From Selaginella tamariscina (lineage: Eukaryota; Streptophyta; Lycopodiopsida; Selaginellales; Selaginellaceae): a DNA stretch of 64,000 nucleotides. Each line of letters starts with the position of its first letter. The stretch's first letter is position 1. The notes beneath the pieces are model-generated. The model had not been told where the DNA came from and did not search any database. It saw only the letters and a program-made list of their open reading frames with translations. The DNA is taken from positions 59,798 through 123,797 of the forward strand of contig PUQB01000693.1 of assembly GCA_003024785.1 (NCBI GenBank). Reading direction: 5' to 3'. This document shows, one piece after another, positions 2,591 through 62,830 of this stretch. Both the position numbers and the translations under genes were made by a program.

Positions 2591-2639
2591 CACAAGACGC
2601 TGAGGTGTAAGAGCTTAGAGGACAACTAGAGCCACCATT

Positions 2640-3469: not shown

Positions 3470-3513
3470 GTTAACTACCCTTGAGGACAAGGACTTGCTA
3501 ACGGGGGGAGGAT

Positions 3514-22075: not shown

Positions 22076-22229
22076 TCTTATAAGTAAGTGGTACTATTCC
22101 AGTGGCTAGATATTGTGTAATATGATCTAACCACCTTAATGGAACATCGACACGAAATAAACTGGCATCAGGAAAGTCATCCATAGTACGAATCGGAAGT
22201 TCGCCTGTTTTAATACGACTTAAATGATC

Positions 22230-24799: not shown

Positions 24800-24850
24800 A
24801 TTAGTCGTTTGGTGGAAGTAGGAGGTTGTACCTTCCGCCTAGGACATTCC

Positions 24851-25351
24851 CTAGAATATGTCCTGTTTCACCACATGTATAACAAACCTGGGAAGGAAAA
24901 TTCCTACCCTGCCCTTGTTTATCATTTCCTTGTTATAGGAATCATTTCTGCCTCTTTGACCTTGATATGGTCTTTCCTCTCCTCTATATTGCCTATCATT
25001 TCTTTCAGGATAAGGTCTATCATTCTGCCACACCTTATATGGACCATTTCTTCCTGCATAATAATTTCCTCTCTAATTTCGTAAGGATTATCATTCCTTC
25101 GTCATAATATCCACTGTTCCTATTCTGATAAGGAACTTCATTCCTTCTGCATATATATTGTTCCTGTTCTCATAAGGAATGACATTATCATTCCTATCAT
25201 TCCCACGGTTCCTATTAGGTGGGAACCTTCTAGGAGGTGGACGTTCATCCATTCTCCTTTCTCTCTCTATACTAGCCACATTCTGATTTAGGAAATGTCT
25301 GCAGTTTCGGGCTACATGTCCTTCCTTTCCGCAGATTTGGCATGTAGGCAA
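24851..25351 (-). pseudogene. Zinc knuckle and basic Arg-rich linker of element F gag
   Basis: The frame begins at MPTCQICGKEGHVARNCRHF, a CX2CX4HX4C nucleic-acid-binding knuckle. It continues into an Arg/Asn-rich low-complexity linker (repeated NDR and YQGQRGRN-type words) with a frame change near 25090. Plant gypsy gag-pro junctions often have such linkers. It is part of one polyprotein with the ORFs on either side, divided here by indels. Confidence 0.65.
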
Positions 25352-26445
25352 TTGCAGCCTACATTCCTCACCGTATGGCCCGGATTGTTACATTTAGTAC
25401 ACCATACTTTTTCCTTTAACTCCTCTTTAACTGTCATTCCTTTTAAAGTTTTCATCATTTGAGCCAATGCTTTCTCATCTATAGGATATTTTCGAACTTT
25501 TACTACATCAGCTTCCTCTTCCTCTTCATCAGAGGATTCTTCCTTTCTTCCATATACTTTCAGCTTTCCTTCTGCAATCTTTTCTATCTGCCTTCTCTTC
25601 TTCTCATATATTTTTAATTGATTAATGAGATCCTCTCTATCCTTTTCATTGATAGTAAGTGCTAGATCTCTATATGGTTTTAGCAACCCTTGCTTATACC
25701 ATTGCAATAAGGCATCCATCTTCACATATGCCTTACACTTTTTCTCATGTTTCTTAAAACGGTGTGTATATTCATCTATCTTTTCTGTTTTGCCTTGAAG
25801 GATAGTCCTTAACTTCTCTAAATGTTCCTCCGGCAATTCCTCCTTTCTGAAATATTCCTTAAATGCATCAGTAACCTTCTGATAATTCTCTCTGACTTCC
25901 TTTTCTAAATCATAATACCAATCAGAGGCATTTCCTTTCAATGTATGTGGAAATATAAGCAGCCTTTCTGCATCCGTCACCTTATACAGTTTTACTACCT
26001 CTTCAAACTGTTGTAAGTGCCTTTTCGGATTTTCCTTCTTTCCTGCAGAGAATGTGGGATACATCACCGTACCCCCAAACATTCCCGGGAAAAGTGCCAT
26101 ATTTGTAATAACCCTTTGCTCTGGTGTATTTCCTCTTACACCTTCCTCCCTTCCTCTTCGGGAGTTCTCAGGAGATCCTTCTCCTTGCAATCTCGGTATA
26201 TGAACAGGCACTCCTCCTCTCACTGTTTCCTCTAAACCAGCTGTTTGATACTGCCTCCAATTCTCTGGATCAGCCTCAGATTTCTGTATTGTTTCTGCAA
26301 TATCCTCTACTATCTTGCCAAGGATATTTTGACGTCTATTTTCGTCAGTTTCAGGTTGCTGTTGGGCAGCCACTCTATTGGCCTGCCTTTGGTTCCTCTG
26401 ATCAGCTAAGGCTGGATCAGGACGATGGTTCCTCCACGGTTCCAT
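25312..26445 (-). CDS. gag: Gag of element F
   Basis: A 377-codon ORF starting MEPWRNHRPDPAL. The middle (roughly residues 110-260) is a retrotransposon gag domain with the typical FPHTLKGNASDWYYDLEKE and FKEYFRKEELPEEHLEKLRT blocks. An acidic linker (SSDEEEEEADVV) follows, then a first zinc-knuckle start WCTKCNNPGHTVRN, after which the frame is broken. A second, perfect CCHC knuckle (CQICGKEGHVARNC) lies in the next frame at 25290-25345. Gag packages the element RNA into virus-like particles. One base indel separates the two knuckles, so this copy would need a frameshift to make the whole protein. Confidence 0.85.
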   Translation of the reverse strand: MEPWRNHRPDPALADQRNQRQANRVAAQQQPETDENRRQNILGKIVEDIAETIQKSEADPENWRQYQTAGLEETVRGGVPVHIPRLQGEGSPENSRRGREEGVRGNTPEQRVITNMALFPGMFGGTVMYPTFSAGKKENPKRHLQQFEEVVKLYKVTDAERLLIFPHTLKGNASDWYYDLEKEVRENYQKVTDAFKEYFRKEELPEEHLEKLRTILQGKTEKIDEYTHRFKKHEKKCKAYVKMDALLQWYKQGLLKPYRDLALTINEKDREDLINQLKIYEKKRRQIEKIAEGKLKVYGRKEESSDEEEEEADVVKVRKYPIDEKALAQMMKTLKGMTVKEELKEKVWCTKCNNPGHTVRNVGCNCLHAKSAERKDM

Positions 26446-26556
26446 TCATTCCTTCTCCTTTACACATCGGCTCTACACCTTCCGAGCCTTTTTCAGAATG
26501 AGATTTCTATCTTTTTAGCCTCTTTTCTCAATGAATGCTAACACTGCAATGGCGAA

Positions 26557-36800: not shown

Positions 36801-38598
36801 TATTATAGTTTTTACTATGACTCGACCCTTTACTTTGAACGTTGACTATGGTTACCTACTACTATGTTGACGGACCATAGATGTAGTGAGAAACAGCCCC
36901 GCTTAGTGCACTTAGGTGTTAAGGGTAGTCCGACCGGCTATCTTTAAATGTCACGAGAAACTCTAAGCGAAGGTAGCACTTACCTTCTAGAAAACCCACC
37001 CCCGATTTTGACGTCCTAGTTAAGATGAGTTTGGCATGTTAATAAGGTTAAGAACACCCCTAGGGTTGACCTAACCCTAGGGTTGCCTTAACCCACGCCC
37101 TAAAACCCCACCCACCTTGGTTAGGGTTTAGGGGTAGGGGTTAGTGTGCAAACTCATCTCATTAACTAAGGGGCTGGCATTTAGTGCTAGCCCACTAACA
37201 CATATAGGAAAAGAGGGGGGGGGGGGGCTCCGTCACATAATAATAAGGTAAAGTATATGTAGGAGAGCTCCTGGGTTCATGACTGAGTTCGTTGCTCTTC
37301 TACCGGTGCAAGCTTCAGCTTGTTGTCGTTAAGGTACAACCCTCTGTTGTACCACCCTAACTTCCAGACGACAGGGTACGTCCCACTTTCGGGGTAGCTT
37401 ACCCTTAACGTTGGCGAATCCATGCCTGGGAGGACTTGTCGGGATGCACGTTCCAAGAAGCAGAGGTTGAGGCTTGTCTCTGCCTCCTCCTCCATGTCAA
37501 GCTAGGACAACACACACAGCTAACTAGGGCATGTTCGTGTCCTTGTCCAACTGTGGGTGTGAGTTCTTGATTGACAGGGTTTCTTACTGAGTCTTGAGGG
37601 ATAATTGAGGGGTTCTAGAGTTGGCATTTAAGAGCCACGTTTGTGGCACTTGGTGCAACTCTTGAATCTAGGGCTATGGCATGATAGCCCACATCGGGGA
37701 AGGCAGTGTCACATGGAGATGTGACACTAGGCTAAACGTCACATGGTACAATGCCTGAGGCACGCCCCTTTGGAGTTATGTCTTGCTAAGGGGTTGGATA
37801 CTCTAGCAAACAGACATGCTTATGCTTGCACTAGGGTTGCTAAGCCTTGGGCATTTGCTCAAGGGAGGTTGGGTCTCATAACTAGGTGTGCTTTGGCACA
37901 CTTGGCTAGGGGATTGTTCTCCTTGGAATTCAAGGGTTGAACAACCTAAACATGTTAGCAGGAGCCCTTTCGTGAGGCACTCGCAAGGTCATGTGCTTAG
38001 GGTTATCCCAAACCTAGCCTTAGGGGAGTTTGCTTAGCAGAACACTCGTGTTCACCTACGGCGCACACTCGTGTCTCATTAGTACTAGCTCTAGGTCTAG
38101 GGTATAACTTGGCCACTCAAACCCTTAGGGGTTAGTCGTGGTTCAGGGTACCCCTTGTCGCCCTAAAGGGGTTGTACTCCCGGATGAGGGTGATTCCTCA
38201 AGGGGTAAGTGACGATGCCTTAGCTCTGTCAGGGGTATGTGTGGAACACACGTCTCCTTGATGGGGGTTAGGGCATGAGCCTGTCTAGGTCTTCTAGGGC
38301 AAGACCCTAAGTCAACTAGGGTTATCCCTCAAGGGTTTTGGGGCAGACACTCTAGGGAGACTTAGGCTAAACCCTAAGTCAACTAGGGTTATCCCTCAAG
38401 GGTTTGGGGGTAGACATTCTAGGGAGACTTAGGCTAAACCCTAAGTCTCTTGTCCACTTGGGCATTAGAGTCTAACCCTAGGGGTCGTTGGGGTTGTTCT
38501 GGGAAACTTAGCGTTGCTCACACAGGGTGATGACGCCAAATGGCCACCTGGCAGCCACGTGTTGCCACGTGTTGGCCCTTTGGGTTAAAACTCTGACA
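36801..38598 (+). repeat. 5' LTR of E2 (type II)
   Basis: A 1798-bp LTR. The first bases are TATTATAG, where other copies have TGTCATAG, so the TG end has mutated. It contains the GCCCTAAAACCCCACCCACC segment that marks type II, shared with E3 and the inverted solo LTR. The CACGTG pair and CTCTGACA end are present. Confidence 0.85.
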
Positions 38599-41500
38599 AT
38601 TGGTATCGGAGCCTATTCTCTGCGGTCAGTAGGACTACTAAAGTGTAGTGTATTTTAAGGGTTTAGTTAGTTCTAAATTCTTGAAGTACTCTATCACTTT
38701 CAGCTAATGTACTGAATTCTGCGTGGAGAGTTGGTCCTGAGATCTATAACTCTTCAGAGTACACCTACTTCATAAGTGGGTGTGGGTTATGGACTTAGAA
38801 GGTAGCACTTGGAAGTCAGCTTCCAAGTTGTATGCCAGGTTATTTTACCTTATGGTTGTCCAGGTTACTTTACCATTTACTTCCACAAGACAAGGCATGT
38901 TAGTTTGTTCTGGCTTACAAACTAAGTCTTGTGAGATGGCCTTGTGATATCCTAATTCTACACATTATTGAAAATTTTTCTTTTTCTTTAAGGTGTTTGA
39001 ATTTGGGATAACACATGATTTGAGAAGACTATGTCCATTGAGTTTTGGCTTAGGTCAAGATCAATAGTGTTCAAACGGGGAAAGACTTATGTTCAAAGTG
39101 CATCTTTGACTTCGGGAGAAGGGGCATATTCAAACATAAGAATGAACACTACATTTTGACATAAAGTGTAAATAAGCTCTTATTATAGTGCTGTTTCCAG
39201 AGTGTAACTCAGAAGCAGACTATGGTGATGAACTTATAATACAACGGAATGTCAATATTAACATATGATAAATATGTTAAGCAATGGGTTTGAAGATCCA
39301 ATGTAGTCAAAGTATTGTCTGATGTTCGCAATATTTTGATGACGCTAGCTGCAAGTAACATTAGGTGGAATAGTTTACTAAGTTCAAGTCCCTTAATTTG
39401 AACAAAGTATCATGAAACCTTAGTTAGTTGTAAGCGCCACTCTGTATTCAAGTTAGCTAGCTCGACTAACTTGATTATGAAATTGTCTCATATGGGATCA
39501 TGAAGAGACTTGGGATAATAGCTTGAGGTTTGGTTTCTTATCGATACATTTTGGGATAGATGGCATGATCTATCAGAAAGAGTAATGTTGGAAACATACG
39601 TTTACATTTTTAGTTTACTGAGTAATGAAGGACTTGCATAGTGAAGGCGTTCGGCGCACACTTGTGCATTTTCATTGTTAACTCTTTAATCTTGAAACTG
39701 TAACGTTGTTTGCAATGTGGAGAAGCTCTTGAACAAGGGTGATTCCTTGGTTAAGAAGAGCATGATTTGGGATTCTTCACTTTGTTTATCGACTAAGTAA
39801 GGAAACTTGCTAAGTTTGATAACTTATGTTGAGAATTACCAATGAGCTAGTAATAGTCGGATTTCCATTGGAGGTTTAAGTGCATGTACCTCCTCAAGAG
39901 TCGGTGTTCGATGAGAATTGAAAGTTGATATTGATTTTCAATATCAATTTCATTTTAGAGTCGAATACGATTATTCAAAAGACGGTTTCTTGACTCTGCA
40001 TCATGGTCGCAAATGTGGGCACTTAAAGAACAAATAAAGTATGTATCTTCAATCTTTCGGAATATTGAAAAATAGAACTATTCTTGACTCAAGGTTTGAT
40101 TGTATTCCTTGGGTTAGTTGTTAGTTCTATCTCAAGGTTTGATGGTGTTCCTTGAGTTGGTTCAATATTCTTGTAAGTATGATATTGTGTAGCGGGATTA
40201 GCTCAAGAAGATGGTGTCCCTTCTTGATGATTGTAGTTCAAGGTTGTCCAATATCCGGTTCGAGAATATGAGGTTTCCTATCACCTCATTGTTGAGATAT
40301 TTATATTCTAAACTTTGAAGAATTTGTGACAATCTTTTCAAGATTGGTTATAAATGACTTGTCAAAGTATATGATATCTCTTCAATATTGAGTTTGGAGC
40401 GCTCAATATCAAACTTGGTTATGATCACATGAGGTGGCCGTAATCATATAATATAAAGACTCAAGTGGATTTGAGTCTGACACTTTGGTAAGGCACTACC
40501 TTAGTGTTATAACTTGAAACGTGTTTTCAAGTTAGTTGAGAAATGAACATTTCTCAATACATTGCTTGAGGGGCAATGTGATACTTTCTGGATTGCTAGG
40601 TGTCTAGAGTGAATAATGTATCTTAGTTCAATGTACTGAACTAGATATTTTATTCATGTTTGGGGAGATCTATTGAATTATAAGGTATGACTAAAACATG
40701 AAGTTGATATAACACTTCAGTGTTATGATAACATTTATGTGGAGGTTGATATCTTACTAAATCAATTAGATGAACCAGACACTAGTTCATGATTCCTCTT
40801 AGTCTCTGAACAAAGTTCCTCGAAATACTGTCGTAACATTATATTTCCGTCTCAAAATTGAAGTTCGGTTCATGTAAACTAAACCATCTATATATAGTTG
40901 TAGCATTTCGATAAATTGATATGATTGTAAGTTTATATGCTAGTATAACAACTAGTTGGTAAGCTTAGGATTTGAACGTTGAAACGATCATTATCCATTC
41001 GAAAGTATCAATATCGAAATTGCAATTGTTTATAGAATAAGGATTAGTTTAAAAAGATGTTTGTCAAAACACTAATTGCTCGAATTAGTGAAATGCTATA
41101 CTTCGGTACAGTGTTGAGAAACATTTACGAAATCAGTTTAAGAGTTGGAAATAAATATAATGTTATGGAGGTGTGCAGTATTCTGAATTCAGAGAGACTC
41201 TTATCGTGGAAACTAAGTCTTAAAATTTGGTATTTTGAACTTAGTGAGATAAAGAGTTAGGAAGTATTGAACGGCATTTAGTATGATGTGCTCTTTGGGG
41301 AATGAGTACAATGAGAGTGACAATTAAGAGAAGTGTTATCTAAATATTGTCGATTAAGGCACTAGAGATGGGTTGAATTTCCTGGTTTCCACATTAGTTT
41401 GTAAGAAAAGTATGTTAGCTTATCTGGTCCCTGAACTGGTCGGTGTTATGAAAGAGTACAAAGATGGTTGCAAAGGACAAATGTAAGGCTATCACACTTG

Positions 41501-42329
41501 GTCGCGGATTTGACTGAATTTGATTCTATCGGGAATAAATTTATGTTAATAACACACCAAGTGAATGGCAGTTGGTAGATTGGTAAGACCTTGTTGTATA
41601 CATGTGAGGCCATGCGCCTCTGTTGCCTCTGGCCAGATTGACATGTTTACAAAGAACAGGGTTTTACGACTTATACTATCTTATATCGGAAAAGAACTTG
41701 ATTCCGATAAAAGTCTCATACTTAGTCTGGCGTAGCTATATACTAATGAGAGATAGGTATAGTAGCAGACCCTTATGAAAAGGGTAATGAGAAGCACCGA
41801 GGGATGCAGAGATGTAAGCTATAATATCATAACATATGGAGATGTGGGACCATTAGAAAATCAAAAGAAATGCGAAGGTGTTTGGTCAAGCATTTGAGAA
41901 GTGCTTGTGTGTGTTAGACGACAGAGGTCGTCAACAGCATTTAATATAAAGGAATAAAGCAAGTCTTTATTTCTTATTAACCAAGGGGCCGGCAACAACA
42001 CTAACTAGAGGCCTCCAATATAAATTCTAGTTAAGTAAGAAATTAACCAGTGTTGTGTGCGTCGGGTGACAGACTTTGCAGACGTGCAAAAGGTCTCCAA
42101 GTGACTTCATGTCGCAGGTGGTGCCTCCGGCAGCTGGGTTTACGACTCAGTGAACGACGGTTCTGAAGTACTTGGTTTCGCGTAATGCAAGGGGGGTAAT
42201 AAAATTATGTGAACTTTTGGCTGACTCCGCATAGAGTGATATGTTAGTTTTGGTTAGTTTTCTCTAACATTATCTAGTCTTGGAGTTGGACGTCAACGAG
42301 GACGTTGACATTTTCAAAGGCGGGGAGTG

Positions 42330-48249: not shown

Positions 48250-48640
48250 GCTAAGGAAGGACGTTCCTTTGCATGAAGTGCTTCAGAAGAGCAATTTCCA
48301 AGCTTTGAAACAAGCTTTGAGTGGCCATTGGAGTTGTACTTATGTAAGAGGGAAGGCCTATTGCTTATAAGAGCCTACTTGAATCCTGTAGAGCAACAAT
48401 ACTCAACGTATGAGCAAGAACTACTGGCTATTGTTAATGCATTATGAGTTTGGAGGCACTATCTTTATGGTACAAGTTTCAAAGTGGTTTACAGATCACA
48501 AGACTTTGGTGTATCTGTTCAAACAGAAAGAGTTTAAACTTTTAACAAGCTCGCTGGATGGTTAAGCTCATGGAGTTTGGCAAATTTCCTATTGAGCATA
48601 AAGCTAATGTGGTGGTAGATGCTTTGTCACGCGTTAGGAG
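48250..48640 (+). pseudogene. RNase H remnant of element B
   Basis: Broken frames with NPVEQQYSTYEQELLAIVNA (Glu), then DHKTLVYLFKQKEF (Asp), ending VVVDALSR (Asp) near 48620. The N-terminal part with DASGVAIG is reduced by a deletion near 48320, so the first Asp is lost. Confidence 0.65.
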
Positions 48641-48779
48641 AGCCACAGTGATTAGAGAATTCCAAACACGCTTATGTAATGCATTAACAAGGACAATCAG
48701 TGAGTTTATCCAGGTAGTTCAACATGCTCAAGCACAAGACGCTGAGGCAGGAGCTCAGAGGACAGCTAGAGCCACCATT

Positions 48780-49575
48780 CTCATTTTAGGATGGAGTTTT
48801 GACTACAATGGCCATGTGTATCTTCCTTATGTAGACCATTTGATCAACCAGGTACTATATTTCCATCATGATTACCCGGAGGCTGGTCATTTTGGGGGGA
48901 GGGAACGTATGAGTTGATCAAGAGAAGTTCTATTAGAGGAATATGAAAGCTAATATCATAGAGTACTACAAGACTTGTGACAAGTGTCAGCAAGTAAAGG
49001 TGCCCAAGGAAAAACCAAGTGGGCTATTAGTACCATTGCCTATTCCAGACAGGCAATGGGCAGTATCTCTATGGACTTTGTCACTAATTTGCCAAGGACA
49101 CAGTGGCATTGGAATGAGTTCATATTATGCTATGTTTGGACGGCATTCCAAGACAGTTTTGAGCTGGGTTTAGCAAGTAAGAAAGCTCAGGCAACATGGA
49201 TGAGGAAGCTAAAGATCTGAGTGTTGAGCTTAGAAACATTCAGAGTTTGTGTAAGAAGAACTTACAAGTAGCTAAGAACCGAGCTATCAAGTTTGTTAAT
49301 GAGCACAGAAGCTTCCAAGAGTTCCAGGTGGGGGATTATGTATATCTCTGAGTGGTATTTTACCACACATGTAAGGCGGAACACTATTGTGCCTTATGGA
49401 AGGGACACAATGATAAATTGTCTCCTAGGTACTCAGGTCCTTATGTGATTCTGGAGCGTATCGATAAGGTGGCATATCGACTACGGCTGCTAGAAGGAGT
49501 GAGGGTGCACCCAGTGTTTCATGTTAGCCAGTTAAAGAGAGTACTCACAAAAACAAGTCCCGGGTAGATTTTGTG
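48780..49575 (+). pseudogene. Core-less integrase of element B
   Basis: Zinc-binding domain HDYPEAGHFGGRERM and CDKCQQVKVPKEKPSG (48850-49020), then ISMDFVTNLPRTQ joined straight to IGMSSYYAMFGRHSKT near 49110. All of the D,D-35-E residues after the first Asp are gone. The tail at 49352-49567 has LSPRYSGPYVILERIDKVAY and VHPVFHVSQLKRVL. The junction is at the same place as in element A, so it was inherited. Confidence 0.78.
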
Positions 49576-49656
49576 GATGTACGAGGCTAATGATACAGGA
49601 CCAGTTGAGTAAGTTATGCTGCCCTTGAGGACAAGGACTTGCTAATGGGGGAGGAT

Positions 49657-49865
49657 TGTTACGACCCGTATAACAAATCAAAGAATATTCTCCCAAAAGG
49701 TATAAGCTAGAATATTCCTAAAGAGCTATACCTAGATCTAAGAGAATTAAGGGCACACTAATATTGGAAGCCTTTTTGGAGAGCAGCATGTGAAGACTAG
49801 AGACAGCTCGGGGAGGTCGGGTGGTTTTGTGAGGGTCTCTAGTTTGTACGTAGTGGTGCCTAACA
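49657..49865 (+). repeat. 3' LTR of element B
   Basis: A 209-bp LTR after a purine tract. The right flank starts TATATGCTGC and is not related to the left flank of the element. Confidence 0.9.
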
Positions 49866-51540: not shown

Positions 51541-52250
51541 ATATCATATATTTAATATTTATAATTATGATAAACTCTTTAATAATAGTACCAAATTTTT
51601 ACTTAACTATATAAATTTAAAAAATGATATGGAAGATTGACTATATTATTATAGGATTTATATATTATTTTACTACTACAAATTTTTAATTAATAATGTT
51701 ATATTTAAATATTAATATTTTAATAACAACATCAATATTTATATAATGTACCTCTTATGCTCTTCCTTAATTATATATTAGGCAATATATTATATAATTT
51801 AATACCTTCTACTTTTATAATGTTATTAATTTTTGTTCAATGAATGTTATAATTTATTAAAGAGTCGAATACAAAATAAAATATTTTAAAGAATATTCTG
51901 TTTTCAAACATATATTCTAAAGAATATTCCTTTAATATTAGAAAATGCTAATTAAATAGCTAAAATTGCTAATTATTAGGAAATGGGACTATAGCCATGC
52001 CCATTTTAGTTACAACATGCATGCATCGGTGCTCATTACCCTTAAGATGTGCAAATAAGGTCTTGCACATTTTATATGGTAATGGGCAGTCTTGTGCAGT
52101 ATCACCCTAAGAGACCCAGAGGGAAACTTACGATTGTCACCCAAAACCAGCATAGTCAAAGTGGTGTATTGTGAATTCTTCCTCTTTTTCATTCACAGCT
52201 CCCTCCTTCTCCTCTCCGAATTTTTACCACTACTATACATGAACTTCCCA
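51541..52250. other. AT-rich spacer without genes
   Basis: Very AT-rich to 51970, then mixed sequence with GCATGCATCGGTGCTCATTACC and repeats of TTGCACATTTTATATGGTAATGG words. It may include the 3' flank of the DUF7869-type gene and unrelated debris. No ORF with a recognised domain. Confidence 0.5.
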
Positions 52251-52281
52251 GGTCTTTGACATTATTCTGGGATGTGATTGG

Positions 52282-53300
52282 TTGAAGCAGTCGAAAGGTA
52301 TGTGTGATTTTTCACTCTCTCCTCCTGTATTACGCTTGAAGTTTGTGTCTCTGCAGTCTATTCCTTTACGTCCAGAGAAGCTTGTTGTTGTTTGTATCAC
52401 ACATACAGCTCCTTTGATTCCAGTCTTGGGGTGGTGTTCATCTCAACAGGTTCAAATGTCGGATCCGTCACCAAAATATCAAGCACAATGCATCGAACAA
52501 CTTAAGCAGCAGTATGTAAGTTTGTTCAAATTTGATATGTTCCAAGGTGCACGTGTGAAGACTCGACACTGTATACCCACTGGCAATGCAAAGCCTTTCA
52601 AAGTCCCGGTTCGACGTAGGTCACCAAAAGAGTTATCATCCATGCAAACAGCTGTTACATATATGATCGATAAGCGGGTGTGTCGTCCTTCACGGAGTCC
52701 ATGGGCATGTGAACCTCATTTGATTCCCAAGCCTGATGGATCTCTACGATTTTGTGTGGATTACCGACCTCTCAACGATGTTACCATCAAAGATGTTTAT
52801 TCACTTCCGAACTCTGCCGATCTATTAGATCATTTGGGTCAGAGTCGATGGTTTACTAAGTTGGATTTGGCATCAAGATATTGGCAAGTTCTTATGGCTG
52901 AGGAGGATATTCCAAAAACGGCCTTCCGGACACCATTTGGTCTTTACGAGTTTTTGGTTATGCCTTTTGGATTGACTTCAGCTCCTGCCACCTTTCAACG
53001 CATGATGGATGAGCTTCTTTTAGATATGCCTGATATCACTGCCGATTTTATCGACGATGTGCTCATTCATGGGTCTGGTTCTTGGGAGGATCACATTCGT
53101 GATGTACGGCGCGTTCTTGATCGATTTTGAGAAGTTGGCCTGAAGTTGAAACTTGAAAAGTGTGTGTTTGGTTCGACCGACACCACTTACTTGGTTACCA
53201 TATATCTCGAGAGGGTTTATAAGTGGATCCAATGAAGTTGCGAGCTGTTCGAGAGTTCCCTCATCCCCGTACAATACAGGAAGTCAGCGTTTCTTGGGCA
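52282..53300 (+). pseudogene. pol (RT): Reverse transcriptase of element C
   Basis: A 282-codon ORF (52282-53130) with KRVCRPSRSPWACEPHLIPK, DGSLRFCVDYRPLND, the first catalytic Asp in FTKLDLASRYWQVLM, the conserved TAFRTPFGLYEFLVMPFGL, and the catalytic box FIDDVLIHG. The next part (LKLKLEKCVFGS, then a broken thumb region) is shifted by an indel at 53130. Both Asp of the xxDD box are present. Confidence 0.85.
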
Positions 53301-53846
53301 AGGTGTAGTACTTGGGTCGATTTATTGATCATCTCACTAATCGAACTGCCCCTCTTTGGGAGTTAGTTCATTCACAGGTACCTTTCAGATGGACTCGCAG
53401 GTGTCAGAAGGCATTTGACCAGTTAAAAGAGTTCCTGACAACTCCACCATTGCTTCAATACCCAGATTTTACTCGTCCATTCATTTTATGAGTAGATGCC
53501 TCAAATGTTGATATTGGTGGTGTGTTGATGCAAACTGATGCTGTGGATCCTTCAATTTAACACCCGATGGCTTACATTAGTCGAGTACTCGTGTTGGCAG
53601 AGCAGAATTATTTCATTACTGAAAAAGAATGCCTTGCTGCTGTTTGGGGTTTTGAACGACTTCATGCTTACTTACATGGGAGTGAAACACTTTTGGAGTG
53701 TGATCATGCTGCTGTCACTTCCTTGTTAAAACAGAAGAATTTAGTGGGTCGTGTAGCCAGATGGGCATTACGTCTCCAAATATATAACTTTAAGGTGGTA
53801 CACAGGCCTGGGCAAACAATGGTGAATGGGGATGCACTTTCTTGAG
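53300..53846 (+). pseudogene. pol (RNH): RNase H of element C
   Basis: Connection DHLTNRTAPLWELV, then VDASNVDIGGVLMQTD (Asp), LAEQNYFITEKECLAAVWGF (Glu), LLECDHAAVTSLL (Asp) and VNGDALS (Asp). All four acids are recognisable. In-frame stops occur before VDAS and near 53560. The frame at 53567-53845 is open. Confidence 0.78.
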
Positions 53847-54090
53847 CACCCCTTTCTGATTCCACTTTACCTGCTCATGCAGTTGCTGCAGCGTTCGGTT
53901 TGATACAAGCCCCTCAGGTATTTGATACCGACTTACAATCCTTGGAACAGTGGCAGGATGCCCAAAAATGTAACCGTGGACGAGGCAATTACGGGATGCA
54001 TTTGCAAATCCTTCTTCCGAACCGCGGTTTCGACAATATCATGCTCAGTTTCGACAATATCATGCTCAGTTTCGACTTCAGGATGGTTTA

Positions 54091-55310
54091 TTGTATTTTA
54101 TTAGGACAAATCCAGAAGACAGATGGCGGTTGGTTGTGCCCTCTACATATGTTCCACACCTTCTTCGAGCATATCATGATTCGCCTATTGTTGGAGGTCA
54201 TCTTGGTCACCAACGAGTGTTGGAGAAGCTCCACAGATCTTTTTATTGGCCCAGCATGCGTGGTGATGTGATCAGGTATATTCAAAGCTGTCCCATTTGT
54301 CAAACTCGGAATTCTTCTACGACTCGGGCCATGGGGGTGTTAGAGTCCATCAACGTCTCTCGCCCTTTTGAGTTAATTGCAATGGATTTAATGGGACCTT
54401 TTCCACATTCTTCTCAAGGTAACCAGTACATCATTGTCGTATCTGATTATTTAACTCGTTGGGTGGAGGTTGGTGCTCTTCCAAATGCAACTGCCATGTC
54501 AACAGTTTTGTTTTTGTTCGATAATGTGGTTTTGCAGCATTCTTGTCTAGAGCGGATGTTATCAGATAATGGCCCCGCTTTCATTGCCAAGGTATTCCGA
54601 GTGTTGTGTGAGAGGTTAGGGGTAAAACACTCATTTGCCTCTCCATATCATTCACAAACTGATGGTTTGGTGGAGCGATTGAATCGGACCTTCAAGGGTA
54701 TGATCTCGAAGTATGTGAACTTCAATCACACTGATTGGGATTGGTATTTGCGATGCTTGAGATTTGCTTATGTAACAGGCATTCAGAGTTCAATTGGTAT
54801 CTCTCCATTCAAGGCATTGTATGGATATGATCTTAAGTTGCCTAGTGAATTGGGATTATCATTGAATCTGCCATGTGCCGAGAATGCAAAAATGTGGGCT
54901 CGACATTTGGATGTTGTCTTGCCTCTTCTGCGTGCAGAGTCTGTTGAACATCTTGGTCGAGCTCAAATACGGCAACAATCCTCTTACAATGCACGACATC
55001 AAATTCTACCAGACTATGCTGACGGTGACTTAGTACTGGTACATTTTCTCAAATTGACTGCACTTGGGCTTGCAACTGGTTTATTACATAAGTGACTTGG
55101 TCCTTACCGAGTACTTTGAAAGGTTGGTCCTAAGGTGTATCAGGTACAGTTGGTGGGATCTCATGAGGTTGAGATAGTTCACGTAGTTCGAATGAAACAA
55201 TTTGTCGTTCGAGACTCGTTGACTACATTCGGTCATACCTTAGATGGCCCAACTCACACGGATCCAGGACCATCAAATCCATCACCATCTACACAGCCGC
55301 AAAGGGGAGG
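54091..55310 (+). pseudogene. pol (IN): Integrase of element C
   Basis: A 334-codon ORF to 55095: zinc domain HDSPIVGGHLGHQRVLEKLH and CPICQTRNS, then AMDLMGPFPHSSQGN (Asp), MLSDNGPAFIAKVF (Asp) and HSQTDGLVERLNRTF (Glu), so the core is complete. After a stop at 55095 the tail continues as VGPKVYQVQLVGSHEVEIVH to 55312. The integrase looks intact except for this C-terminal break. Confidence 0.85.
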
Positions 55311-55314
55311 ATAA

Positions 55315-55414
55315 TGTAAGATACTGTATATTATGTAATGTAATGTATATACGCATGTGTATATACACATGCGTAATGACACATGGTGGTGATCTGGCCG
55401 CCATGTGTCAGCGC
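55315..55414 (+). repeat. Start of the 3' LTR of element C
   Basis: Follows a purine tract and starts TGTAAGATACTGTATA. It holds two hairpin-forming sequences: a perfect 26-bp palindrome at 55350-55375 (centre GTGTATATACAC) and an inverted repeat TGACACATGG (55377-55386) / CCATGTGTCA (55401-55410). Element D was inserted 4 bp after the second hairpin. Confidence 0.7.
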
Positions 55415-56181
55415 TGTCACGGGAAAATTTGGACCATCACCTTGGTAGCCCCTGGTATGCATGTAGTGGACTAGTCTTCTACTCGTATTATACTAGTCTT
55501 CTACTCGTATTATACGTCTACATTTCACTTTACTATTCACCTTCTTTGTCTTTTCTTGCATGGTCAAACTAGTCAACATTATTATGTTAATCCATATGAT
55601 TAGTGCCTGCTTTGACCATGCACATTTTCTTTGTCTTCTTCCATGCACCTTCCTAGTCACCTTCCCAAGTCAAAGTCAAGTCACCCTCTTCCATAACCCC
55701 CATCATTTATGGGTCAAGCCCACCTTCTTCCATAACCCCCATCATTTATGGGTCAAGCCCACCTTCTTCCATAACCCCCTACCATTATTCTTATGTAACC
55801 CCCATCTTACACCCTCTCTTACATCCCTACCCTACCCTACATGCATTCTTTATATTATTTTGGGTATATAAGGAACCAAGGCTCAAGGGTTTCAAGAGAG
55901 AGGACACATATAGATATAGAGATATAGAGAAGAGTCTCTAGTTTCTTCTTTTCTTTTCTTACTTTGTAAATAGGTGTGATGACATTATTTTGTGTGTGCT
56001 TATGATGAAATATAAAAATTAGTTAGTGTATCTTTCGTGTCATGAGTTTCATCTCATGTTTTCCCTTTCCTTTCTATTCTTTTATTCATGTGTGAGATCA
56101 TTAGCAAGGACTACTACGATGCGCTATCACTAAAGCCATCAAGTCCCGAACATACGAGTCCCGAATGATTTTCCTTCGACA
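55415..56181 (+). repeat. 5' LTR of element D
   Basis: A 767-bp LTR, TGTCACGGG to CTTCGACA. It contains a 17-bp direct repeat (TTCTACTCGTATTATAC, twice near 55485), a 39-bp tandem repeat (TTCCATAACCCCCATCATTT..., two and a half units at 55690-55790) and a TATA box (GGGTATATAAGG near 55862). The 103-codon ORF through it also occurs in the 3' LTR and is not a gene. Confidence 0.92.
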
Positions 56182-56218
56182 TGTTTTTGGTGCGGTGAGC
56201 GTGGAATGCTAATGTGCA
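56182..56218 (+). other. Presumed primer-binding site of element D
   Basis: A few bases inside the 5' LTR the sequence TGGTGCGGTGAGCGTGG (56189) begins with TGG, as tRNA-primer sites do. It does not match initiator Met. The tRNA was not identified. Confidence 0.4.
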
Positions 56219-56647
56219 TTGTTTATGAATGAGCCTGAGCGTCCTTTCTGGAGAAGGTTCTTTCAACTTTCAAGGTCTCTTCAAAATCAAATATTGAAGT
56301 GTTGTTTTGAGCATCCACATGGGTTTGCTTTAAATAACAAGTTGGTGGTCATTCAAGCGTGGGGATTTGAAGAATTCAAGTTTGGAATACAACTTGCAAT
56401 TGCGAATGTGCTTTTGAGGAGGCGAGAGGTGAATCGAGCATGGATCAAGATTTGGCACCCATGTGATAGTGGTGATATCGATGAGGCACATCGTTTGTGT
56501 ATGGATCTTCCATACATTGATCCTCACATCGCAGTCGTGACAATATCTCGTTGGATTCATCCAAGTCTTTGGGAATCTTGTGGAGTGTGGAGTTTGGTGA
56601 AGCAAGAGTATTGCGCGCGTTGTGAGAGGTTCGGTTGTGCTTGTTAA
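56219..56647 (+). CDS. ORF1 of element D, unknown function
   Basis: A 142-codon ORF between the 5' LTR and the RNase H ORF. The N-terminal part reads MFMNEPERPFWRRFFQLSRS, the middle is helix-rich (IQLAIANVLLRRREVNRAW), and it closes with a possible zinc-binding cluster CARCERFGCAC. No known retrotransposon domain was recognised. The TAA stop (56645-56647) overlaps the ATG (56647-56649) of the RNase H ORF as TAATG, so the two could be linked by termination-reinitiation, or they may be one protein split by a 1-base indel. There is no signal peptide or membrane segment. Confidence 0.6.
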   Translation: MFMNEPERPFWRRFFQLSRSLQNQILKCCFEHPHGFALNNKLVVIQAWGFEEFKFGIQLAIANVLLRRREVNRAWIKIWHPCDSGDIDEAHRLCMDLPYIDPHIAVVTISRWIHPSLWESCGVWSLVKQEYCARCERFGCAC

Positions 56648-57075
56648 TGTGGCAAGTCAACTTTGATGGAGCATACAAGCCAAAGAAGCAAGTTGCGAGT
56701 GTAGGGGTCGTGCTAACTGATCCAGTAGGGAAGCGAATCAAAATTTCTGAGCCAACTTCTAGTGCTAATTCTTGCAATCAAGCGGAGTATTCTGCATTGA
56801 TTCGAGGATTGAAGGAGGCAAGGAAACAAGGAGCGAAAAACGTGGTTGCGATTGGTGACTCTAAGTTGGTGGTGAACCAAGTGCAAGGTCAGTGGAAAGT
56901 GAGAAAGCCTGAGTTGTTGGTGCTTTCTGAGCGTGTTCAAGATCTCAAAAGGGGATTCGACACTTTTGAGATAAAGCACGTTCCTCGAAGAGAGAATCTA
57001 GAGGCTGACGAGCTTGCACAGAGGGGGCATTGCCTCGTCAAAGTGACGTCTCTTCATCTACTTGTAATCAGGTGA
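56647..57075 (+). CDS. Archaeal-type RNase H (aRNH) of element D
   Basis: A 142-codon ORF from the ATG that overlaps the ORF1 stop. It has the RNase HI fold signature with all four acids: Asp in VNFDGAYKPKK, Glu in CNQAEYSALIRGL, Asp in VAIGDSKLVVNQV and Asp in RRENLEADELAQRG. The NQAEYxAL and GDSxLVxNQVxGxW words are those of the archaeal-like RNase H that plant Tat-type elements captured. In Tat elements this domain lies within pol. Here it lies upstream of gag. It would remove RNA from RNA/DNA hybrids during reverse transcription, which the degenerate pol RNase H of this element probably cannot do. Confidence 0.85.
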   Translation: MWQVNFDGAYKPKKQVASVGVVLTDPVGKRIKISEPTSSANSCNQAEYSALIRGLKEARKQGAKNVVAIGDSKLVVNQVQGQWKVRKPELLVLSERVQDLKRGFDTFEIKHVPRRENLEADELAQRGHCLVKVTSLHLLVIR

Positions 57076-57103
57076 AACCTTTGCCATTTTTACACTTGTA
57101 AAG

Positions 57104-57652
57104 ATGGTGTCTATTCCAGTATATCATGGTCTGCAAAATGAGGATGCAGATAGGTATTTACGTTCATTTAAGCGAGCATGCATTTCGAATGGAGATAGAA
57201 GTTCTACCACTTGGGCAGAACTTCTACCATCCTTTTTGGAGGATGGAGCATTGAAGTGGTTTGAACGTCAAACTAGTGATGTTAAGGCTAGTTGGGAGAG
57301 GTTGAGTGAGGCTTTTCTAGGAGAGTATGGAAAGCCAGAGACATTGGATGAGGTCATGAAGCAATTGGATCAATTGAGGCAAAGTGAAGAAGAGAGTGTC
57401 AAGGCATTCAGTGAGCGTGTGTTGGAACTCCAATGTAAGCTACGAAGTGGTTTGGGAGTGGAGGCCTCCGAAGGACAGGAGGATGCATCCAAGGAGTCCA
57501 AACCAGCTGTGGGGATAGATGCATTGGTGTTCAACAAGTTTCTTACTGGATTGAAGCCGGTATTACGCCAGAAGGTAAAGAACAAAGAGCCTAGTAACTT
57601 GCAGGAAGCTGTGAAGATTGCTATGAAAAAGGAGGCACTTCTCATGGATTGA
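57104..57652 (+). CDS. gag: Gag of element D
   Basis: A 182-codon ORF beginning MVSIPVYHGLQNEDADRYL. Typical retrotransposon gag blocks: WAELLPSFLEDGALKWFERQ, SWERLSEAFLGEYGKPETLD and QLRQSEEESVKAFSERVLEL. It forms the particle shell. Its TGA (57650-57652) overlaps an ATG (57652-57654) of the next ORF as TGATG, the second such overlap in this element. Confidence 0.85.
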   Translation: MVSIPVYHGLQNEDADRYLRSFKRACISNGDRSSTTWAELLPSFLEDGALKWFERQTSDVKASWERLSEAFLGEYGKPETLDEVMKQLDQLRQSEEESVKAFSERVLELQCKLRSGLGVEASEGQEDASKESKPAVGIDALVFNKFLTGLKPVLRQKVKNKEPSNLQEAVKIAMKKEALLMD

Positions 57653-58509
57653 TGAAGCCTCAATCTCAAGTAGCACCACAACCAAGGTTGGCACCAATTC
57701 TACAAACACCCCAAGTTGTGATTCCTGCAACCGTTCCAGTCAAATCATCTGAGTTGGAGAGTAGTATTGCCAAATTAACTTCAGATCTCAACGAACTCAA
57801 GTTGCATTTGCTTCAAGCAAAGCCAACAGGACCAAAACCTCCAAGGCCACCTAGGGATCGAGCTAATGTCACTTGTTACATTTGTAAACAACAAGGTCAC
57901 TATGCCACTGAATGTCAACAACCACGACCACAGGTGACATGTTTTACATGTAAACAGGTGGGACACTATGCAAATGAGTGTCCTCAGAAACCTCAATCAA
58001 CTCCTGCACCACAACAGAGGGACCAACCTAGTGTTCATTTGGTGGAGTTAACAACCGAGCAAGGTGACTTGGATCTCTTAGGTCTTAAGAGAGCCAGAGG
58101 GGAGCAACAAGTGGAGCAACCTGAACAAGTGGAGACACGTGCAAGCAAGAAGAAAAGGAAGGAAGGTACCAAGCCACGACGTAAGGTTGGTATACAGGAT
58201 ATGGGGATTGGCAAGGGGCAGAAGGAATATTCAATTGTCGAGGATCTAGGAGATACTCGTGCCAACATTACAGTTGCACAATTATTGTCAAAATGCCCAA
58301 GCTTGAGGAGAGAGCTTCGACAAGGGATTAGTACTCGTGCAAAGAAGGTACGTCCTAGTGGTGAGGATGAGGTGATGCGAAATGTACAAGTGATAACAAG
58401 AGAATCCAATACGAATGCCGTGGCACCAATTGTGGATGTGGTAGTAGATGGAAATGCGTGTGCAACGTGTTTTAGTAGATGGTGGTGCAGAGATCAATGT
58501 CATGAGTAG
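57652..58509 (+). CDS. Nucleocapsid region of element D with two zinc knuckles
   Basis: About 285 codons. Pro/Gln-rich start, then two CX2CX4HX4C knuckles, CYICKQQGHYATEC and CFTCKQVGHYANEC (about 57875-57975). A basic patch follows (SKKKRKEGTKPRRK), possibly a nuclear signal. The C-terminal part runs toward the protease and ends with a frameshift at about 58457, after which the true protease frame is one base off. The knuckles bind element RNA. Confidence 0.8.
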   Translation: MKPQSQVAPQPRLAPILQTPQVVIPATVPVKSSELESSIAKLTSDLNELKLHLLQAKPTGPKPPRPPRDRANVTCYICKQQGHYATECQQPRPQVTCFTCKQVGHYANECPQKPQSTPAPQQRDQPSVHLVELTTEQGDLDLLGLKRARGEQQVEQPEQVETRASKKKRKEGTKPRRKVGIQDMGIGKGQKEYSIVEDLGDTRANITVAQLLSKCPSLRRELRQGISTRAKKVRPSGEDEVMRNVQVITRESNTNAVAPIVDVVVDGNACATCFSRWWCRDQCHE

Positions 58510-58760
58510 CTGGTTGATGGAGAAACTTGGTCTCAAGTGCAACCAACCATCGAATTGGAGGATTAGGGTGGCGATGATCGACGTGTCAAGCCAGTTGGAA
58601 TGATTATTGACTTGCCGATCACAGTGCACGGGATAACTACCTCTATAGATGTGCATGTCATGCAACTACGACGGGATGCACATGGTTATCCTATGATCTT
58701 GGGTCGACCTTGGCTTTATAAGGTTGATGCTAAGAATTATTGGAAAAAGGGGGAGATGAC
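58440..58760 (+). pseudogene. pro: Aspartic protease of element D
   Basis: VLVDGGAEINVMSSWLMEKL near 58468 is the active site (DGG type). After a frameshift near 58570 the domain closes with VMQLRRDAHGYPMILGRPWL (58660-58715). Two 1-base indels split the domain. All key residues are present. Confidence 0.75.
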
Positions 58761-59149
58761 TATTGGTCATAAGTCAAGACGAGTGACAATAGCCATCAAG
58801 GAGAACACAACAAAGGTTGTAGATGAGGAGTCATCTTCCAGTGAGGAATATGATTCTAGCAGTAATAGTGAGGTGACAACCTCAGATTCTGAGAGTGAGC
58901 AAGAGGAGAAGGAATTGTATGCCCTCAAGGCGATTCCTAAGGTTGCTACGCGTGTGGAGCCTCACGATAGACATGAGGTCTATGATCAACAACTCACCCA
59001 GGAGCAGGAGGCTCAAGGAGGGGTAGTAGGGGTTGTTGAAAAGGGGCAGGAAGCAAGTAGTGGCAACAAGTTTGAGGCAAAGGAAGTGGAGCGACGAGCT
59101 CTTTTGGAGAAGATGCTTAGTTCAAGTTTGACTCCTGAGGAGAAGGAGC

Positions 59150-60140
59150 AATACATGAGCATGCTATTGAAGTTCCCCAAGTTGTTTGCGACATCATATG
59201 AGGAGCTTCGTCAAGTAGATATTGTGCAACATGAGATCCCACTTAAACCAGGTATGAAGGGAGTTGCACAAAAGGCTTATAGGATGGGTCCTTTGAAACA
59301 GAGCATAGTTTATGAGGAGCTCATGAAGCTACAGCGTTCGGATTTCATTTTTAAGGTGGAAACGTCAGATTGGGTTTCTCCTGTGGTGGTAGCCCCAAAG
59401 AAAAATGGTAAGTGGCGAGTTTGTGTCAACTTCAAACGATTAAATGATGGCACACATCGAGATCATCACCCCATTCCTTTCATGGATGAGATACTGGATG
59501 AAGTGACAGGGCATGAGATGTACACATTTTGTGATGGGTACTCTGGGTATTTCCAAGTCAGGATTCGAGAAGAGGACCACTGAAGACTACCTTCACCACA
59601 CCATGGGGAACCTTTGCGTATAGGGTGATGCCGTTTGGACTCACAAATGCTCCAGCAACGTTTCAACGATTGATGAACAAGGTGTTTGAACCATATCTTG
59701 GTTCATTCATTAGGGTTTACCTCGATGACTTTTGCATCTATAGCGATAGGATGAGCCACTTGGAGAAGGTACAACTAGCATTCCAAAGGATGGATGATGC
59801 AAAAGGATGCTTGAACCCGGAAAAATGTCAGATTGGTAGTACTAAGGGCACCTTAGTAGGACATGTGATCTCAAAGGATGGCATTGAGCCAAGTCAAGAC
59901 AAGGTGGACAAGCTACTCATGTTGCCAACTCCGACTTGTGTCAAGGAGGTACGAAAGTTTGTAGGGTTGGCAGGGTACTATCGTAGATTTGTGGAGGGAT
60001 TTGCAGAGATGGCATATCCATTGAACCAGCTACTTCGTAAGGGAGTTGCATTTCAATGGACTTCTTCATGCCAAGCATCATTTGAGAGGCTTAAGATCGC
60101 ACTAAGTTCACATCCGATTTTGGTGGCACCTAAATGGGAG
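59150..60140 (+). pseudogene. pol (RT): Reverse transcriptase of element D
   Basis: The ORF 58600-59583 has an acidic Ser-rich linker (SSSSEEYDSSSNSE), then the RT start with VSPVVVAPKKNGKWRVCVNF and FCDGYSGYFQVRI (first catalytic Asp). A frameshift at 59580 moves to the ORF 59625-60188: MMPFGLTNAPATFQRLMNKV, catalytic VYLDDFCIYS, LVGHVISKDGIEPSQDKV and KFVGLAGYYRRFV. All RT acids are present. Confidence 0.85.
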
Positions 60141-60520
60141 AGTTATTTTATGTCAATCTCAGCGTTGGAGAAGTTTCAATCACTGTGATCCTGATGCAGA
60201 AGGGGAGAAGCGGATACTTGTTTCCATTTATTATGCAGGAAGGCAATTACAAGGGCCAGAGCTCAACTACCCATTGTTGGAGAAGCAAGCAGCAGTCATA
60301 TATGCAGTGGAGAAGTTCAAGCATTACTTGTGGGGGCGCCACTTTGTTTTCCTCATCAACAATGCAACACTTAAGTACATTGCCAATAAGCCTGGGCTCA
60401 CAGGGAAGTTTTCTAGGTGGATCACGACCTTGGCTGAGTATGATTTTGAGTTTCAACATGAGAAGAGCACAAGAGCGGGTTTAGCAGAAATGTTGGACCA
60501 AGGTGACATTGAGAAGTTCC
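60140..60520 (+). pseudogene. Degenerate pol RNase H of element D
   Basis: Aligned by its neighbours, the first catalytic block (usually V-x-x-DAS-x-x-aiG) reads YVNLSVGEVSITVILMQ, the third (usually FTDHKxL) reads FLINNATLKYI, and the last (usually ADALSR) reads GLAEMLDQG. Three of four acids are therefore replaced. The Glu in LLEKQAAVIYAVEKFKHYL remains. Loss of the native RNase H together with a captured one is the pattern known from Tat elements and vertebrate retroviruses, where the old domain becomes a tether. Confidence 0.72.
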
Positions 60521-60700
60521 ATTATCTTTGGAAGTTTGTGCTCTTTCACCCGACATGGAGGATTATCAAGAAGTCTACAATTTCTTGATGGATGGGAAGT
60601 TTCCAGAAGGATGTACAACAACCCAGAAGAAGACGATCATGCGACAATCTCGACCTTATATGGTAATGGGTGAGTTACTTTATAGGTAGGGCGAGATGGT

Positions 60701-61806
60701 GTGCTTCGACGAGCGGTGGGTCGTCAGGAGAGAAAACAGATCATGGAGCAATGCCATGAAGGATTTTGCGGTGGACACTTCTCACACGACTACACTTCCA
60801 AGAAGATAGTCAATGCAGGATATTATTGGCCGACCCTCTTCAAGGATGTTAAGGAGTGGTGTCGGACTTGCCAGGTTTGTCAGACTTTTGGAAGAAGAGT
60901 TGTACAAGGGACCTTTGCATCCTATTTTACCAACAGGTCCATTTGAGAAGTGGGGAATAGACTTTGTTGGTCCCTTGCCAGTGGCTTCTTCACAAAAGAG
61001 ATACATTATTGTGGGTACTGACTATCTAACGAGGTGGGTGGAAGCAGTCTCTGTTCGAGCTTGTACCAAGGAGGTCGCAACAAATTTCATCATCCAGAAC
61101 ATTGTCACCAGGTTTGGGTGCCCATTAGAGATAGTAACAGATCAGGGTTCTCATTTCTGCAATGAAGTGGTGGAGCTTCTTCTTTCTCAATTGTCCATCA
61201 CACGGCGACAATCAACAAGTTATTACCCTCAAGCTAATGGACTGGTGGAACGAACAAATGGAGTGTTGTGCAATATATTAGCTAAGCTTGCGGTGGATCA
61301 TAAGAAGGATTGGGACAAGTGGTTACCAGCAGCACTTTGGGCTTTCAGGACAACACACAAAGTTGCTACCAGGTACACACCATTTCAATTAGTTTATGGT
61401 ATAGAAGCAATACTCCCAATTGAGCTGGAATACCAAGCTTGCGTCTAGCATTGAAGCATGGGCTTGGAGATGGTGAGGACTTGCAAGCAAGGTTGGTTCA
61501 GTTGGAGAGCATGGATGAATCACGAAGACAAGCCTTGCAACTTGTGGAGCAATGCAGCAGAAGTGGAAGGCCAAATTCGATAAGAAGATTCGAGAACGAC
61601 CACTCAAGGTGGGTGATTTAGTGATGCGATATGATAGTCGATTGGATAAGACCTTCTCAAAGAAGTTCTTACCAAGATGGGATGGACCTTTCATCATTGT
61701 GGAGGTTTATAAGAATGGGTCATATCTTTTAGCAAACTTGGATGGAGAACAGCATGGCACACGGGTTAATGGTTACAGGTTGAAGCGCTTTCATGTTCGA
61801 CAGTAG
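60701..61806 (+). pseudogene. pol (IN): Integrase of element D
   Basis: Zinc domain CHEGFCGGHFSHDYTSKKIV and CRTCQVCQTF (60750-60900). A frame change occurs near 60890. The ORF 60813-61448 then has KWGIDFVGPLPVAS (Asp), EIVTDQGSHFCNEV (Asp) and ANGLVERTNGVL (Glu). The tail 61552-61806 has LKVGDLVMRYDSRLDKTFSK and NGYRLKRFHVRQ. The core is complete. A small indel near 61448 splits off the tail. Confidence 0.85.
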
Positions 61807-61865
61807 CTATGAGTTTTCAAACAACCCGCATCGCGTGGCAATGCGTGTTGTTTGGGTGGGATTTA

Positions 61866-62637
61866 TGTCACGGGAAAATTTGGACCATCACCTTGGTAGC
61901 CCCTGGTATGCATGTAGTGGACTAGTCTTCTACTCGTATTATACTAGTCTTCTACTCGTATTATACGTCTACATTTCACTTTACTATTCACCTTCTTTGT
62001 CTTTTCTTGCATGGTCAAACTAGTCAACATTATTATGTTAATCCATATGATTAGTGCCTGCTTTGACCATGCACATTTTCTTTGTCTTCTTCCATGCACC
62101 TTCCTAGTCACCTTCCCAAGTCAAAGTCAAGTCACCCTCTTCCATAACCCCCATCATTTATGGGTCAAGCCCACCTTCTTCCATAACCCCCATCATTTAT
62201 GGGTCAAGCCCACCTTCTTCCATAACCCCCTACCATTATTCTTATGTAACCCCCATCTTACACCCTCTCTTACATCCCTACCCTACCCTACATGCATTCT
62301 TTATATTATTTTGGGTATATAAGGAACCAAGGCTCAAGGGTTTCAAGAGAGAGGACACATATAGATATAGAGATATAGAGAAGAGTCTCTAGTTTCTTCT
62401 TTTCTTTTCTTACTTTGTAAATAGGTGTGATGACATTATTTTGTGTGTGCTCTTATGATGAAATATAAAAATTAGTTAGTGTATCTTTCGTGTCATGAGT
62501 TTCATCTCATGTTTTCCCTTTCCTTTTCTATTCTTTTATTCATGTGTGAGATCATTAGCAAGGACTACTACGATGCGCTATCACTAAAGCCATCAAGTCC
62601 CGAACATACGAGTCCCTGAATGATTTTTCCTTCGACA
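61866..62637 (+). repeat. 3' LTR of element D
   Basis: A 772-bp LTR. Relative to the 5' LTR it has an extra TC near 62452, one extra T near 62526, and an extra T at two places near 62615-62626. I see no base substitutions. It is preceded by a purine-rich GTTTGGGTGGGATTTA. Confidence 0.92.
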
Positions 62638-62830
62638 GCCCCACGTGTCGCATGTGTGCCACGTGGTAGGAGGTCTCTTGTATATAAGCAGGGTTTTTGT
62701 AGCTGAATATATTTGACATTTCTGAATATATATCTGCTCTTTCAAAATGTGTATTTATATTAGCCCAAAACCCTAGCTTATATACAGGAGTGAGTGGTAC
62801 AAATTTAAAGCAATCCAACGGCTATAAAAA
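62638..62830 (+). repeat. Continuation of the 3' LTR of element C
   Basis: It resumes after element D with GCCCCACGTGTCGCATGTGTG. It contains a CACGTG box and a TATA box (TGTATATAAGCAGGG near 62680), as expected in the promoter part of an LTR. The right end cannot be fixed, because no second LTR of C is in the window. Confidence 0.45.

Follow-up and report, generated by a model that had tools for sequence, protein, structure and literature searches.

A probable Tat-type Ty3/gypsy family of Selaginella tamariscina with an archaeal-type RNase H reading frame ahead of gag

An archaeal-type RNase H precedes gag in element D

We analyzed a stretch of 64,000 nucleotides from Selaginella tamariscina (assembly GCA_003024785.1, contig PUQB01000693.1, positions 59,798 to 123,797 of the forward strand), here called the window, and within it a long terminal repeat (LTR) retrotransposon at positions 55,415 to 62,637, element D. 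Ahead of its gag lie two open reading frames (ORFs), the second of which encodes a ribonuclease H (RNase H) of archaeal type, and the RNase H native to its pol is degenerate. The parts of the element that bear on this arrangement are the following.

56225..56647, plus strand: ORF1, 140 amino acids, of no known family, ending in CARCERFGCAC; its stop overlaps the next start (UAAUG)
56647..57075, plus strand: archaeal-type RNase H ORF with a complete D-E-D-R-D set (RVT_3, 6.8e-28, Pfam)
57104..57649, plus strand: gag capsid part (Retrotrans_gag, 5.7e-11)
57871..57990, plus strand: two CCHC zinc knuckles of gag (profile match)
60140..60520, plus strand: native RNase H, the four catalytic positions reading S/Q/N/E (alignment)

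A preliminary description of this DNA had assigned a full D-E-D-D set to the ORF at 56647-57075. We confirmed this in an alignment of the D protein with 19 database relatives (three of which have an organism given, a bacterium each time), where D7, E47, D71 and D121 are invariant among the 20 sequences and R114 is nearly so. The boundaries of the ORF need some qualification: the ATG does lie at 56647 on the plus strand, but it overlaps the stop of ORF1, and the frame of the window copy ends earlier than the form common in the family. The AlphaFold model of the protein (pLDDT 92.4) found archaeal-type RNase HI structures as its top Foldseek matches (3hst, 4e19 and 3aly, TM about 0.82-0.84), with E. 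coli RNase HI not before ninth place, and the nearest solved structures by sequence were Halobacterium RNase H1, Rv2228c and Sulfolobus RNase HI. A protein search with the D RNase H returned 18 proteins at E <= 1e-3 from 56 candidates, the two with an organism given being bacteria, and a longer query matched 2 of 432 candidates, one with an organism given, again a bacterium. There were no plant proteins among these matches, a result of little weight, since the length and word filters of the search may exclude them; no relatives were confirmed in viral_contigs and genome_contigs. By profile, the window holds no second archaeal-type RNase H (next match, E = 0.11). As part of the overall explanation given below, the catalytic RNase H of element D is probably this predicted archaeal-type enzyme, expressed from its own ORF between ORF1 and gag.

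The pre-gag RNase H is a trait of the family

Copies were surveyed in the assembly (300.7 Mb, 1391 contigs), where 150 of 410 candidates were scored and the counts are accordingly lower bounds. We found at least 152 matches to the D RNase H; at least 47, the window copy included, are stop-free and reach 99% identity or more across residues 1-128 at the minimum. Many of the other matches have diverged and contain stops; among three short stretches from old RNase H subfamilies (L048-L050), those translated contain stops too. Twenty of the other 46 copies were fetched, taken from the upper part of the RNase H similarity ranking. ORF1, RNase H, gag and the zinc knuckles follow one another contiguously in all 20; reverse transcriptase (RT), native RNase H and integrase are also in order in 18, and LTR matches are present at both ends in 17. 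The placement of the RNase H ahead of gag and outside pol, as first described, is thus seen in the window copy and in 20 of 20 further copies, and each of them carries the RNase H region in the same place. An archaeal-type RNase H ahead of gag is a trait of the family and not a one-off capture. Within the RNase H block, all 20 copies are identical for 381 bases or more; this identity reflects recent amplification, is favored by the ranking and is no demonstration of purifying selection. It also counts against our reading of the family that the 20 copies were chosen high in that ranking, which selects for intactness of the RNase H.

Cellular archaeal-type RNase H genes occur in plants (PMC5348765, Ustyantsev 2017, cited throughout from excerpts, as are PMC6317226, PMC5902531 and PMC5972666), and a functionless fragment of such a host gene could have been captured by accident in one copy. 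The identical placement in all 20 further copies, the many copies that encode the RNase H without stops, the degenerate native RNase H and the report of this layout in four mosses (PMC10508981) leave that explanation a negligible probability. For the D family, host capture in a single copy was rejected on account of the 20 further copies.

The native RNase H of pol has lost its catalytic residues

The copy L036, which represents D in an alignment of 19 gypsy RNase H domains, has S/Q/N/E at the four catalytic columns of its native RNase H. Thirteen of the 17 database gypsy proteins are readable at all four columns, and 11 of these are D/E/D/D; P0081 has N at the third column and P0116 has N at the fourth. 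Among the incomplete proteins, two have D and E intact and two are of the fern type, with S/L before they become incomplete. P0028 and P0113, the latter from Adiantum, are fragments with a degenerate RNase H start as in D. Every readable native RNase H acid is kept in the four other gypsy elements of the window. Across the 21 copies of the D family (the window copy and the 20 fetched), 17, 20 and 19 have degenerate motifs at the first, third and fourth positions, respectively, the remainder being unmatched by the searched pattern; the second position was read solely in the window copy and L036. The native domain had been described as missing three of its four acids. The loss is real; at the fourth position D has become E, so that all four residues are changed. 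Decay of the native RNase H where an archaeal-type one was acquired has been described (PMC5348765), and the native RNase H of D, its catalytic residues lost, probably survives as a tether (connection) domain.

With such a domain in pol, D might also borrow RNase H activity in trans from a related family or from the host, its own RNase H ORF being a relic. A related family with a complete archaeal-type RNase H is indeed present in the same genome; however, D has kept the D-E-D-R-D set and a confidently predicted fold while its native RNase H lost the catalytic residues, and we consider such borrowing very unlikely compared with an active enzyme from the pre-gag ORF.

Element D is a young, CG-targeting Ty3/gypsy element

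The remaining features of the element are listed below.

55411..55414, no strand: left flank GCGC, an NCGN-type target site; the right flank, 62638-62641, is GCCC
55415..56181, plus strand: 5' LTR, 767 bp, TG...CA
56188..56205, plus strand: primer-binding site, complementary over 18 nt to the tRNA-Phe(GAA) of plants, six bases past the 5' LTR
58440..58740, plus strand: protease region, frame broken in the window copy, placed from copy L036 (gag-asp_proteas, 2.9e-5)
59395..59867, plus strand: reverse transcriptase, split over two frames in the window copy (profile match)
60722..61229, plus strand: integrase, H2C2 zinc-binding and core domain (profile match)
61866..62637, plus strand: 3' LTR, 772 bp

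An alignment of the two LTRs shows no substitution in 767 bases; four small indels are the sole differences. The 18-nt primer site is identical in all 21 copies; aragorn calls the plant tRNA sequence used for the match Phe. A chromodomain, the chromovirus trait sought downstream of integrase, gave no match in the single ORF scanned there (61552-61803). Element D is a young, multi-copy Ty3/gypsy LTR retrotransposon, probably a non-chromovirus of Tat type, and its family is most likely the published structure #4, 'Tat C', of Selaginella tamariscina.

The D family inserts at CG. Exact 4-bp duplications were present in six of seven copies whose two ends were both set by strict motifs, and all six are NCGN. 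Left flanks are NCGN in 11 of 12 copies; for right flanks the figure is 12 of 18, at least one of which was put in the wrong place by a looser end motif. CG makes up 2.2% of the dinucleotides of the window. The flanks of the window copy itself are unequal, GCGC on the left versus GCCC on the right.

In L036, Gag-protease (2023-3714) and RT-RNase H (3693-5651) occupy separate frames with a short overlap, and this boundary varies among copies. The protease motif reads VDGG.

A related family keeps its archaeal-type RNase H inside pol

At least seven loci (L021-L027) encode an RNase H 41% identical to that of D inside longer ORFs of 345 to 1610 residues. The longest of these, the single 1610-residue ORF of L021, contains gag, protease, RT, native RNase H (933-1062), archaeal-type RNase H (1114-1234), H2C2 and integrase. 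Its RT is 69% identical to that of D, the two being reciprocal best matches among the proteins compared, and its native RNase H is degenerate as well (S/D/D/R). The 18-nt tRNA-Phe site is present in five of the seven loci, is a base shorter in one and was not read in another. None of the six 4-bp target duplications readable by eye is NCGN. The archaeal-type RNase Hs of the two families are 39% identical, about as divergent as their native RNase Hs (41%), and they group together at 83/88 in a tree whose other rows were picked by similarity to D, with a long branch for the related one. An RT tree of 120 rows unites D, the related family and twelve database rows, three of them from Adiantum, in one group (88/81). 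A single acquisition of the archaeal-type RNase H with a later move is weakly favored; the domain would have moved to its pre-gag place from the position between native RNase H and integrase that the related family still keeps in the same genome. Two points count against our explanation of D as a whole: D joins the twelve database fragments (94/85; three from the fern Adiantum) before it joins the related family, and the RT tree, with its bootstrap unsettled, is without labelled Tat sequences.

The preliminary description knew of no described plant element with the arrangement of D, but its novelty does not hold, as such an element is published. Biryukov and Ustyantsev (2023; PMC10508981) report the same order, their structure #4 (Tat C / Tat B), in Selaginella tamariscina and in mosses, with the layout in four of the latter. 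Both the archaeal-type RNase H with a complete D-E-D-D and the degraded native RNase H core (S/Q/N/E) are traits of structure #4 found in D, and no difference between the two was shown. The layout is therefore already known, and D probably represents the published family. The question these authors raise is how such an RNase H, located outside pol, can work and let the native domain decay; their text, figures and supplement aside, is silent on ORF1, stop-start junctions, AUG content, primer type and target site.

L021-L027 correspond to Tat structure #1 (dual RNase H; Ogre, Retand), which resembles D in its degenerate native and complete archaeal-type RNase H and, in these loci, in related RT and gag-protease and in the tRNA-Phe site of five. 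It differs in having the archaeal-type domain in pol between native RNase H and integrase, with one polyprotein ORF in L021, and in 4-bp target duplications without CG. Three positions of an extra RNase H, all inside the polyprotein, are given in the excerpts of PMC6317226 (Neumann 2019), a survey that dropped elements with unexpected domain order; TatI/TatII and TatIII also carry an extra archaeal-type RNase H, but between protease and RT or after integrase. According to the same excerpts, non-chromovirus primers are mainly tRNA-Ala, -Arg, -Asp, -Lys and -Trp, and not tRNA-Met. The tRNA-Phe primer of D, absent from that list and not tRNA-Met either, weighs against our placement of the element. 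NCGN is described there as an exception peculiar to Phygy of Physcomitrella. D shares this insertion preference; Phygy differs in that its polyprotein spans nearly the whole internal part, whereas about 890 nt precede gag in D, and in that the excerpts give an archaeal-type RNase H to the Tat lineage alone. The NCGN preference held in common hints that Phygy and the moss and lycophyte structure #4 Tat elements may be relatives, named differently by the two surveys.

Junctions and AUG content of the leader

ORF1 and the RNase H ORF together fill about 890 nt ahead of gag. The UAAUG overlap between the ORF1 stop and the RNase H start is present in all 21 copies, and the RNase H stop lies two bases ahead of the gag AUG in 16; the RNase H frame is shorter in the other five, namely the window copy, three that resemble it and one further copy. 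Stops and starts that overlap or lie close together are a trait of termination-reinitiation. Around the gag AUG, position -3 is A and +4 is G; the AUGs of RNase H and ORF1 have T at -3 without G at +4. The RNase H ORF is poor in AUGs: between its start and the gag start there is one, where dinucleotide shuffles give 6.7 (as few in 1 of 500) and 5.06 are expected when synonymous codons are drawn at family usage (as few in 6 of 2000). Thirty-one overlapping 151-codon windows of the D gag-protease and RT-RNase H ORFs all reach at least 1.02 of the expected AUG number; in the related family, the archaeal-type RNase H inside pol has nine AUGs versus 8.24 expected, and 49 windows of the polyprotein range from 0.72 to 1.47 of expectation. 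ORF1 has seven AUGs versus 12.1 in dinucleotide shuffles (18 of 500 as low). ORF1, compared with the related family and with the remainder of the window, gave a best match of E = 0.70.

These junctions and the AUG poverty suggest polycistronic translation by reinitiation or leaky scanning. The genomic RNA would be translated as a series of ORFs, ORF1 followed by RNase H and gag-pro-pol. Ribosomes would gain the RNase H start through the UAAUG overlap and would cross the AUG-poor RNase H ORF, by reinitiation or leaky scanning, to the gag AUG, which is well placed. RNase H would then be a separate, free protein some 151 residues long that may act in trans on the RNA/DNA hybrid inside the particle. 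Several observations speak against this proposal. The ORF1 frame is open in just six of the 21 copies, the others having small deletions or an insertion, several of them common to more than one copy. By codon resampling the seven AUGs of ORF1 are no deficit (8.43 expected, 639 of 2000 as low), and permutation of its own codons leaves the RNase H ORF a weaker one (2.69 expected, 233 of 2000 as low). Predicted structure beside UAAUG is not strong (z about +1). The preliminary description further held that the RNase H would be made first; this is unproven, as ORF1 and other AUGs lie ahead of the RNase H AUG, whose context is weak. On the whole, that description was right about the layout and the disabled native RNase H, and wrong about novelty.

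UAAUG coupling has been reported as experimental for the non-LTR retrotransposon SART1 (PMC5972666), and AUG-free ORFs that permit leaky scanning for RTBV (PMC5902531). D resembles the former in its stop-start overlap and the latter in its AUG-poor upstream ORF; neither is an LTR retrotransposon, and D is known from sequence alone. LTR retrotransposons use frameshifting, according to the excerpts of PMC5902531, and coupling in D would therefore be unusual. No published report of junctions of the D type was found in the open-licence literature, which was mostly searched for other points.

Frameshifting could operate in D as well. In the 16 copies of the common form, with the RNase H ATG as the origin of the count, the RNase H frame continues as far as 453 and that of gag is open from 422 on, so that a -1 frameshift in this stretch of about 31 nt, open in both frames, would make RNase H an N-terminal extension of Gag that is carried into the particle. 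This would solve the packaging of RNase H, and local structure is predicted there in the window copy (z -2.7, mononucleotide shuffle). No canonical slippery heptamer was seen by eye, with no scan run; the gag AUG context is strong, and a fusion leaves unexplained why the RNase H ORF is so poor in AUGs, which makes it rather unlikely. We find it equally doubtful that gag-pol is translated from a spliced RNA lacking ORF1 and RNase H, with RNase H coming from the unspliced RNA. The leader is long and has AUGs ahead of gag, and gag/pol splicing is described for Ogre (PMC6317226), but neither the scarcity of AUGs in the RNase H ORF nor its two-base gap to gag would then be needed.

The explanation as a whole, comprising Tat C identity, a native RNase H kept as tether, a separate archaeal-type RNase H ORF, the chain of ORFs, action in trans and the domain move, is in our judgment probable by a good margin. 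Its strongest form is tentative, and we rate it at somewhat less than an even chance: D RNA may be a true polycistron, in which the UAAUG-coupled, AUG-purged RNase H cistron is both the source of a trans-acting enzyme and the path of ribosomes to gag. If so, the ratio of RNase H to Gag-Pol would be set without any polyprotein. What is added to the published layout is evidence on how an RNase H outside pol is produced, a small clue that the junctions and AUG poverty suggest; together with the related in-pol family in the same genome, they make the question testable in one species.

Further observations in the leader and the window

In the window copy a local hairpin is predicted at 57070-57115, across the region that contains the gag AUG and the RNase H stop of the common form (the z of -2.7 is that of a 106-nt stretch). 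Right after the primer-binding site, an AUG-started frame of eight codons (56206-56230), its stop overlapping the ORF1 start region, is present in 18 of the 21 copies. UGGGA, the core of a reinitiation motif, occurs at one site, 56570.

Directly upstream of D, a gypsy element at 52000-55100 contains RT, a native RNase H with its acids intact and integrase. Another, at 19000-26500 on the minus strand, also has intact native RNase H acids; its RT is about 45% identical to that of D and grouped with Adiantum P0128, and this neighboring element (at 22-23 kb) falls elsewhere in the RT tree. The window also contains repeat blocks, 7606-11064 matching 38365-41809 at 94% identity and 2173-3722 matching 48319-49865 at 89%.

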